Assembly: GCF_017798005.1 (NCBI RefSeq)
Contig: NZ_CP072548.1
Location: 744,001 to 808,000 of the forward strand
Reading direction: 5' to 3'
From: Aggregatibacter sp. 2125159857
GTDB lineage: Bacteria > Pseudomonadota > Gammaproteobacteria > Enterobacterales > Pasteurellaceae
Length of the DNA stretch: 64,000 nucleotides
The position numbers and the translations under genes were made by a program. The notes beneath the pieces were generated by a model. The model did not search any database. It worked only from the letters and a program-made list of their open reading frames with translations, and had not been told where the DNA came from. Every line of letters begins with the position of its first letter. Position 1 is the stretch's first letter. Positions 50,300 through 52,476 of this stretch are shown here, one piece after another.

Positions 50300-51613
50300 T
50301 TAATCTAAAATCACTTCGGTAATGAATTCCGAATCCAAGCCAACGACAGGTAATTCCGACCCCGGCCAGGTTCTGACGACTTGATAATCCATTAAATCCA
50401 GTGTGTCTAATCCCGGCGTAACATGTGGCGTATATTGTTTTGCCATGCGAGCCAGTTGGGTTAAACCAAAGCTACTTTCAATGCTGGAACTGATAACCGC
50501 TTTAATACCTAATGCGTGTGCCTGTGCAATCAGCTCGGCACAACGTTCAATAGATCCCACCAAAGTCGGTTTAATCACAATCGCTGCCAAGTGCGGTTCT
50601 TTTTCCACGCGAAAATCCGGTTCGCGTACGCTTTCATCCCAAGCAATGTTAATGCCGGTTTCTGCCGCAAATTGGCGACTTTCTTCACGGGTTTTGCAAG
50701 GTTCTTCAATAAATTGAATGCGTGCACGATGCTCAGGTTTCACATATTTCGCAAACATTTGCGCTTTAGCCGGTGTCCAGCTACGGTTAGCATCTAGCCG
50801 TAATTGCAAATCCGGAATAGCCTCTAACAACATATCGGCAATAAGGCCATCACGATTGGCTTCATACATGCCCACTTTCACTTTCGCCACTTTTTCACCC
50901 TGCATTTGATCCAGCGGTTCATAAAGCTCATCCGGATCACCATAACATAAAGGTGCCGTTTGATAATTGCCTTCATCGTCCAAGCGACCTTTCATTTCCA
51001 TCAATGCGCAACTGAGCCCGAACGCCACAGAAGGATATAAATCCGCCGTTAAATCCAATTTCACATTGCAACTGCGGGATTGATCCCATTTTTCCAGCCA
51101 TTCGATGGCTTGGGCTTGGGCTTGGTCTAAGGTTTCATGACTAAACTCCGGCAACGGCGCAATTTCGCCCCAACCTTCATTTTGCCCACAGCACACCTTC
51201 ACCAAAAGACCTTCGCGTTTTTTCAAAAAGCGATTGCGCAAAATCAGCTGCGAATCTACCGGAATGGAATAACGGAAAAGTTGGTAACGACGATGTTGAA
51301 TGGCGCAATTTTTCTTTTCATAGAAAATTTTGCCCACTTGTTGAATATGTTCCAGTAAAGCCGGATCGGTAATCTTGTCATGAATAACTAAATCAAATTT
51401 ATACGGCACGGTGGTTTGCGACAGGGTTTGTTGAATGTCGTGTAACATGTCATCGGTAATGCCATCGCCTTTTAAGGCTAAATCAATGTCTGAGTCTTCA
51501 CGAAAATTGCCTTTTCCGCGCGAGCCAAACAAAATTGCCGTTTCAACCTGAGGGAAATGGCGCAAATGCCAACCGATTTTTTTAATCATTGTGTCTGTTA
51601 AACCGAAATCCAT
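50300..51613 (-). CDS. menC: Fusion of an MNT-type nucleotidyltransferase to o-succinylbenzoate synthase
   Basis: A single 437-codon frame joins two domains. Residues 1-101 are a minimal nucleotidyltransferase: Gly30-Ser31 in LFGSRGKG, Asp42-x-Asp44 in DSDIDLAL and Asp74 in KFDLVIHD form the complete catalytic set. Residues 106-437 are MenC, the enolase-fold enzyme that dehydrates SHCHC to o-succinylbenzoate in menaquinone synthesis, with [25 protein letters not shown] and VIKPTL. The join ([13 protein letters not shown]) has no stop and no standard start codon. An ATT codon (51299-51301) stands where MenC would normally start. Both halves look intact. Either a fusion protein is made, or MenC starts separately at the ATT. 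Confidence 0.88.
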
Positions 51614-51675
51614 TGTCTGTTACTCCGTCTATGATGAATAAAATGCGTGATGAAAGCGGGGGATTTTCGCTGCAT

Positions 51676-52476
51676 TTAAGCGACATCCCACCAAATTAAC
51701 GCCCATTTGGGCTGTCCGTGTTTAATCGGTTCATTGTGCTGTTGTTTTTGATGATAAAACTCCGCGAGGCGTTGTTTTTCTTGGTCATTTAACGCACCAA
51801 GGGAAAACTCTACGGAAGCCAGTAAGTCTTCGTAGGTTTCGCCCATAAAGCGACCGGATTCAGTTTCAATGAAATTCAGATTTGCTTGAATGCCTTTTTG
51901 ATAAAGCCGATTGAGCAGGTAAATATAGGTGGGGAAACCCACATCATTACGCCCAATCGCAGAAAACACGCCTTCATCTAAAAAATGGCGTTGCGTCACC
52001 GAAGTGAGATACACCCGTTTTTTGGCTTTGGCGCAGATCTTCGCGATCATATCATCTAAGTCATCGACCAAGGTAGAGCGGGAGGCAAGTACCACATCTG
52101 CCGCCGGCACATCATCCCAGTTATCCGCCCAAGATTTATGGAGTAAGTGTAAATTATCCAGTTGTAGGGCGTGTTTGAACTCAGCCAGTGCCGCCAACAT
52201 GCCCGTGCTGTAATCCAATGCGTGAACCTGACGACAATGTTGCGCCAAAGGTACGGCAAATGTACCCGGACCGCAGCCGATATCCAAGAGGGTTTCATCC
52301 GGCTGCATTTGCATTGCCGCCATTAACTGCGCATTATAGCAACTTGGCTTACCCACCAAATTTTCAGCCATTTTGGGCGCTTTTTTATCCCATTTGTCCG
52401 GCGGCAAATGATAATGATTGCAGGCGATAAGATGTTGCTTATAAAGCGCGTTAAAATCTATGTCGTCGATTGTCAT
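51676..52476 (-). CDS. Class I SAM-dependent methyltransferase of unknown substrate
   Basis: The 266-residue protein has the Rossmann-like methyltransferase core with motif I TLLDIGCGPGTFAVPLA near residue 62-78, the ribose-binding acidic residue in VHALDYSTGML and motif IV-like AADVVLASRST. The N-terminal helical part and the C-terminal third (RFMGETYEDLLASVEF) do not point me to a known substrate. It lies between pepA and the nucleotidyltransferase-MenC gene, all in one direction, with short gaps of 46 and 62 bp. It is not a recognised quinone-pathway methyltransferase by sequence. Confidence 0.82.
   Translation of the reverse strand: MTIDDIDFNALYKQHLIACNHYHLPPDKWDKKAPKMAENLVGKPSCYNAQLMAAMQMQPDETLLDIGCGPGTFAVPLAQHCRQVHALDYSTGMLAALAEFKHALQLDNLHLLHKSWADNWDDVPAADVVLASRSTLVDDLDDMIAKICAKAKKRVYLTSVTQRHFLDEGVFSAIGRNDVGFPTYIYLLNRLYQKGIQANLNFIETESGRFMGETYEDLLASVEFSLGALNDQEKQRLAEFYHQKQQHNEPIKHGQPKWALIWWDVA

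Follow-up and report, generated by a model that had tools for sequence, protein, structure and literature searches.

A minimal nucleotidyltransferase (MNT) runs in frame into o-succinylbenzoate synthase (MenC) within a single gene of Aggregatibacter sp. 2125159857, located in the 64,000 nucleotides analysed here (NZ_CP072548.1, positions 744,001 to 808,000; henceforth the window). Since it is shared by six of nine genomes of the genus, this fusion is real and inherited, and no sequencing error. As an explanation of the whole, we incline, with confidence slightly better than even, towards a captured MNT that has been frozen or domesticated on menC.

The fusion gene (50300–51613, minus strand, as are all features given below) is a 437-codon open reading frame with an ATG start, a stop codon at 50300–50302 and no internal stops. 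Residues 1–101 (51311–51613) form an N-terminal MNT/Polbeta nucleotidyltransferase domain, recognised by the Pfam models Polbeta (PF18765, residues 12–101, 59.4 bits against a gathering cut-off of 26.9) and NTP_transf_2 (PF01909, residues 20–83, 26.9 bits, cut-off 21). A linker of six residues, NCAIQH (residues 102–107; 51293–51310), seen in the translation and the alignment, leads into the MenC domain (residues 108–437; 50303–51292). The active-loop motif GSX10DXD lies at residues 30–44 (51482–51526) and reads G30 S31 ... D42 I43 D44, and the third Asp is D74 (51392–51394), a position that is Asp in 49 of 51 standalone MNTs. The original prediction of an in-frame fusion of two complete domains is thus borne out by the single reading frame, the Pfam matches and the presence of D42, D44 and D74, and so is its remark that no HEPN gene adjoins the fusion: the upstream neighbour, beyond a gap of 62 nt (51614–51675), is a co-directional gene with a methyltransferase domain (51676–52476), in the place that in the other five fused genomes is held by a gene we take to be menB.

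The genome sample comprised 140 Pasteurellaceae genomes, one per species, nine of them from the genus (G000, the window's own, and G001–G008) and 131 from outside it. The protein was matched over its full span (residues 1–437) in six, all of one genus: G000 and G001–G005, which include A. segnis HK_296 (G001), A. kilianii PN_528 (G002), a strain labelled A. actinomycetemcomitans SL7469 (G003) and A. segnis ATCC 33393 (G005). In the other 134 genomes, among them G006, G007 and A. actinomycetemcomitans HK_961 (G008), the MenC match starts at residue 81 or later. The N-terminal domain that the original prediction proposed looking for in other menC genes is therefore present in six of the nine genomes of the genus, and no MNT-MenC fusion was found in the 131 Pasteurellaceae genomes outside it. 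The copies in G001–G005 are 92–98% identical to the window's protein, none contains a stop, and the region 51280–51320, which had been singled out as a possible site of a frameshift, holds an identical in-frame junction in six separate assemblies. A sequencing or assembly artefact that deleted a stop between two genes, which could appeal only to the rarity of the fusion and to two proteins of public assemblies (P0122 and P0123) resembling frame-shifted pieces of the same MNT domain, is ruled out by the six in-frame copies; since six assemblies agree on the junction and the corresponding cluster has 2038 member sequences, we give it next to no probability. P0122 and P0123 themselves may reflect either error or real decay, and count against a uniformly intact domain.

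That cluster emerged when the MNT part was used to query 5.8 billion clustered proteins in a word-limited search; proteins of comparable length were considered and 22 candidates were scored. Two architectures appeared among these 22, the fusion cluster and a 281-aa protein (P0241) in which a similar MNT domain (43% identity) is joined to Methylase_S (PF01420). In the PMC literature we found nothing on a menC-nucleotidyltransferase fusion in Aggregatibacter.

The MenC half is, to judge from its sequence, an ordinary gammaproteobacterial o-succinylbenzoate synthase. It scores far above the cut-offs of NF003473 (557.3 bits, cut-off 236) and TIGR01927 (347 bits, cut-off 130.55), Pfam divides it into MenC_N (residues 108–207) and the enolase C-terminal domain MR_MLE_C (residues 238–385), and residues 108–428 align with the E. 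coli enzyme (1fhv/1r6w). The aligned active-site segments are AKVKVG (243–248), RLDANR (272–277), FIEEPC (301–306), AWDES (324–328) and VIKPT (346–350), which we take to provide the KxK, D, E, D and K of the MenC active site.

The start of this half departs from that of other menC genes. For the comparison 30 menC loci (from 51 matched genomes) were used, namely 23 unfused, the six fused and that of G006. In all 23 unfused loci an ATG precedes the conserved R-x-Y of MenC by one to three codons; it aligns exactly with codon 105 of the fusion in 13 of them and lies one or two codons closer to the MenC core in the remaining ten. At codon 105 (51299–51301 in the window) the six fused genes all have ATT, the remaining two positions being CAA/CAG and CAT/CAC, and the G006 locus has GTG where unfused menC has ATG. 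Across residues 81–107 no ATG, GTG or TTG is common to all six fused genes; the potential starts are a GTG at codon 93 in G000, G002 and G005 and a TTG at codon 86 in one fused gene, while inside the MenC half TTG130 and GTG138 are common to all six. Internal initiation at GTG93 (in three genomes), TTG130, GTG138 or ATT105 is possible. Because the fused genes lack any nearby ATG and have ATT at codon 105, whereas all 23 unfused loci have an ATG, most MenC is probably produced within the fusion, and menC of the fused species thus starts about 107 codons upstream of its usual start. A screen of Pasteurella multocida for anaerobic mutants yielded a single menC insertion (PMC8616859), so that loss of the fused reading frame should cost cells without oxygen.

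By sequence the closest solved structures to the MNT half are 8xeh and 8xeo (E 5e-16 and 1e-15), with HI0073 (1no5) at 7e-4. Only the MNT domain can be read from the AlphaFold model: there the ten-residue mean pLDDT is 76–90 in eight of ten blocks, falling to 62 at the N-terminal end and to 57 across the active loop (residues 31–40), and this part superposes on 8xeo with a TM score of 0.87 by target length (rmsd 1.8). The MenC part was modelled poorly (overall pLDDT 61.4, pTM 0.44) because the alignment was shallow there. Summed over 15 pairs of fused genes, dN/dS is 0.114 for the MNT half (residues 2–100) and 0.034 for MenC (108–437), and in standalone MNTs it ranges from 0.04 to 0.21 among the 28 pairs with dS below 2 (of 45 pairs, 17 were dropped for saturated dS). 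These ratios indicate that the fused domain is under purifying selection, and as its value falls within the range of the standalone genes, the constraint is about that of free MNTs.

Despite this constraint, the active loop departs from the family. Position 33 is G in all six fused copies and A in 51 of 51 standalone MNTs, and position 40 is D in all six fused copies and G in 47 of 51. In G001, a single draft genome, D44, which is D in all 51 standalone MNTs, is replaced by N, leaving the catalytic Asps retained in five of the six fused species. Of the family-conserved positions, 8 of 39 vary within the fused set, which does not differ significantly from other positions (P about 0.27). According to PMC11586414, changing either Asp of the motif to Glu abolished AMPylation by the Legionella pneumophila MNT, and PMC7641770 describes the motif as required in Shewanella MntA. 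By analogy with the Legionella changes, although the one in G001 is to Asn, the MNT half of G001 is probably inactive as a transferase. The catalytic activity of the fused MNT looks dispensable more generally, considering the D44N change in one species, the two active-loop departures in all six, an apparent loss of the domain in G006 and the occurrence in G007 and G008 of HepT-MntA together with an unfused menC.

We searched for a HEPN partner throughout the genus. PF08780 has no match in G000, G001, G002, G004, G005 or G006, a HepT query with E up to 1 found nothing in the same six genomes, and PF01934 and PF05168 are absent from all nine. G003 carries one HepT-MNT pair, on another contig than the fusion. 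The only other Polbeta match in G000 falls below the cut-off (25.4 bits) and lies within an 838-codon frame that is perhaps glnD. By these searches the window's fused MNT is an orphan, with no HepT partner in its own genome. Of the features of a type VII HepT-MntA system, the GSX10DXD motif is present in the window and in four other fused species, and an adjacent HepT with RX4HXY is absent at the fusion. The fusion scores 45.6 with the NCBIfam MntA model NF047752 (cut-off 60), a cut-off that does not discriminate here since the HepT-paired MNT of G007 scores only 36.

The same locus takes other forms in related genomes. In G007 and G008 the order is menB-HepT-MntA-menC, with a HepT carrying R-x4-H-x-Y, a MntA that overlaps menC by 20 nt and an unfused menC. 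The same order is found in Actinobacillus porcinus NM319 (G084, L091) and in G086, making at least four genomes with an unfused MNT neighbouring menC, and as these last cases are apart from Aggregatibacter, the menB-menC gap took up MNT genes more than once. The HepT-MntA pairs between menB and menC occupy 3579–4309 in L091, 1589–2319 in L108 (a contig of the same A. porcinus strain) and 2278–3008 in L109 (G086). Inverted repeats AAGTGCGGT, probably a terminator and presumably uptake-signal-like, follow menB (L032, about 1910–2010; L115; L091, 3537–3580); between menB and HepT they are missing in G007 and G008 and present in A. porcinus. In several Pasteurellaceae (L040, L041, L042, L043, L110, L111, L112) HepT-MntA pairs stand directly upstream of a gene that we take to be mnmA, a second favoured slot.

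The fused MNT is not a simple descendant of the G007/G008 cassette: it is only 43–46% identical to the MNTs of these genomes, against 89–97% between their menC and that of the fused genomes, and in the MNT tree the cassette MNTs group with the mnmA-side cassette MNTs of other Pasteurellaceae (support 99, inner nodes 48–100), apart from the fused set. G006 has menC alone, preceded by an N-terminal leader MTSSDKLDCTVQKRRY (L037, 2467–2514) similar to the fusion linker. This leader appears to be a remnant after in-frame loss of the MNT, and a shared older leader is possible. In the public record of this protein (P0002, labelled A. kilianii) the start is placed ten codons after the ATG, at a GTG.

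Phylogenies of the locus are patchy. G003, G007 and G008 fall together (support 98–100), apart from G001, G002, G004 and G005, and G006 is placed on their side with support of 48–90. G003 pairs with G008 in menB (90) and in menB plus menC (69), whereas menC alone pairs G007 with G008 (68). Over the first 60 nt of menC, G007 and G008 are 98% identical to each other and 80–82% to G003, while in 15 windows beyond this G003 and G008 are 90–100% identical, a pattern that points to recombination having moved one segment, whether G007/G008 received the cassette or G003 the fused 5' end. The latter course is also compatible with the dS values of G003 against the five remaining fused species, which are lower in the MNT (0.69–1.11) than in MenC (1.25–1.56). 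We propose that the genus inherited the fusion from its ancestor, a proposal that depends on this patchy tree and on reading G006 as a loss. In G000, menB lies about 240 kb from the fusion, whereas in G001–G005 it adjoins it, and the sequence is again similar to that of the congeners only from a few bases ahead of the fusion ATG. Comparison of these loci thus indicates that a rearrangement, with its breakpoint in the 62-nt gap beside the fusion start, split menB from the fusion and left the fusion intact.

Under the explanation we favour, an ancestor of Aggregatibacter would have captured a minimal nucleotidyltransferase of the MntA kind in the space between menB and menC, with a reading frame that ran on into menC. 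The ATG of menC would then have decayed to ATT, so that MenC would now be produced, mainly or only, as the C-terminal portion of a 437-aa protein whose translation presumably begins at the MNT ATG. The MenC half would supply o-succinylbenzoate synthase for menaquinone, and so for anaerobic growth, and the fusion would be kept because a menC without its own start is needed under those conditions. Selection on the joint frame and on the fold would maintain the MNT half, mainly because losing its start or frame would cost MenC too, and nucleotide transfer would be at most optional. Of the two outcomes the original prediction had offered, the evidence favours the frozen gene-capture event, given the lost menC start, the catalytic Asp replaced once, the apparent loss of the domain in G006 and the cassette beside an unfused menC in G007 and G008. 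The other, that the domain could modify or regulate MenC, may hold, in view of purifying selection and of the five of six copies with their catalytic Asps. Against the capture explanation itself, an MNT dN/dS of 0.11 is what would be expected of a working domain, five of six species keep all catalytic Asps, D44N comes from a single draft genome, MenC may have the internal starts given above, and in the MNT tree the fused MNT stands apart from the Pasteurellaceae HepT-MntA cassettes.

A more ambitious possibility, which we hold only tentatively, is that the fusion is an anti-addiction device or a metabolic switch, which either neutralises incoming HepT or nucleotidylates MenC or some partner and so adjusts menaquinone synthesis. 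The main rival lies on the second side: the MNT half would be an active transferase that modifies MenC or another protein of the menaquinone pathway and thereby regulates it, which would make it comparable with regulators of the GlnE/GlnD type. We judge this unlikely. The retained Asps in five species, the MNT fold of the window's model and a constraint at the level of standalone MNTs speak for it, together with the proposal, in PMC3710099, that MNT-HEPN modules were domesticated into protein-modifying regulators; they have to be set against D44N in G001, the apparent domain loss in G006, the two active-loop changes in every fused copy and, in G007 and G008, a different MNT that is paired with HepT next to an unfused menC.

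On the anti-addiction side, the fused MNT would serve as a solitary antitoxin against HepT toxins arriving on cassettes, stabilised by a gene needed anaerobically. HepT-MNT pairs do occur in the genus (G003, G007 and G008) and sit in this very slot in two genera, and the constraint on the domain resembles that of standalone MNTs. The low identity to the cassette MNTs of G007/G008 and their separate branch, the active-loop departures and the absence of a PF08780 HepT from five of the six fused genomes nevertheless make this rather improbable. Lower still we place an aid to the folding, stability, oligomerisation or translation of MenC that involves no transferase chemistry; such a role would suit a domain that is constrained yet tolerates D44N, and a fusion start that survived the upstream rearrangement in G000, but MenC manages with no such domain in 134 of 140 genomes and G006 seems to have lost it.

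The fusion thus offers a natural case of an antitoxin-related module tied to a metabolic gene, in one genus that displays three states of the locus: fused, apparently lost, and unfused HepT-MntA. The locus therefore allows direct tests of whether function or entanglement preserves orphan antitoxins, and of whether HepT immunity or menaquinone regulation is involved.

Among known systems, the antitoxins of HepT-MntA (HEPN-MNT, type VII) modules are the closest relatives of the N-terminal half, with the L. pneumophila MNT (8xeh/8xeo) as the nearest solved structure and H. influenzae HI0073 more distant. Like them, the fusion has the whole domain and, in the window's copy, the GSX10DXD motif, the third Asp and the modelled fold; it differs in being joined to an enzyme, in having no adjacent HepT (and none found in the genome for five of six species) and in G33 and D40. 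Another MNT fusion is suggested by a weak match (E 0.076) to PDB 9z7q, a chain named Cmr1-MntA, on which we found nothing in the PMC literature. With E. coli MenC (1fhv) and the NF003473/TIGR01927 families the fusion shares the full domain and the active-site segments, but unlike gammaproteobacterial MenC it has no MenC ATG start and carries 107 additional N-terminal residues. The menB-HepT-MntA-menC loci (G007, G008, G084, G086) likewise place an MNT directly upstream of menC, although as separate genes, with a HepT partner and with MNTs of another branch. Domesticated Polbeta nucleotidyltransferases, an idea put forward in PMC3710099, likewise give an MNT-type module a metabolic task. GlnE and GlnD are probable examples. 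The parts of the fusion are already known, and what is new is their combination as an MNT-MenC variant.
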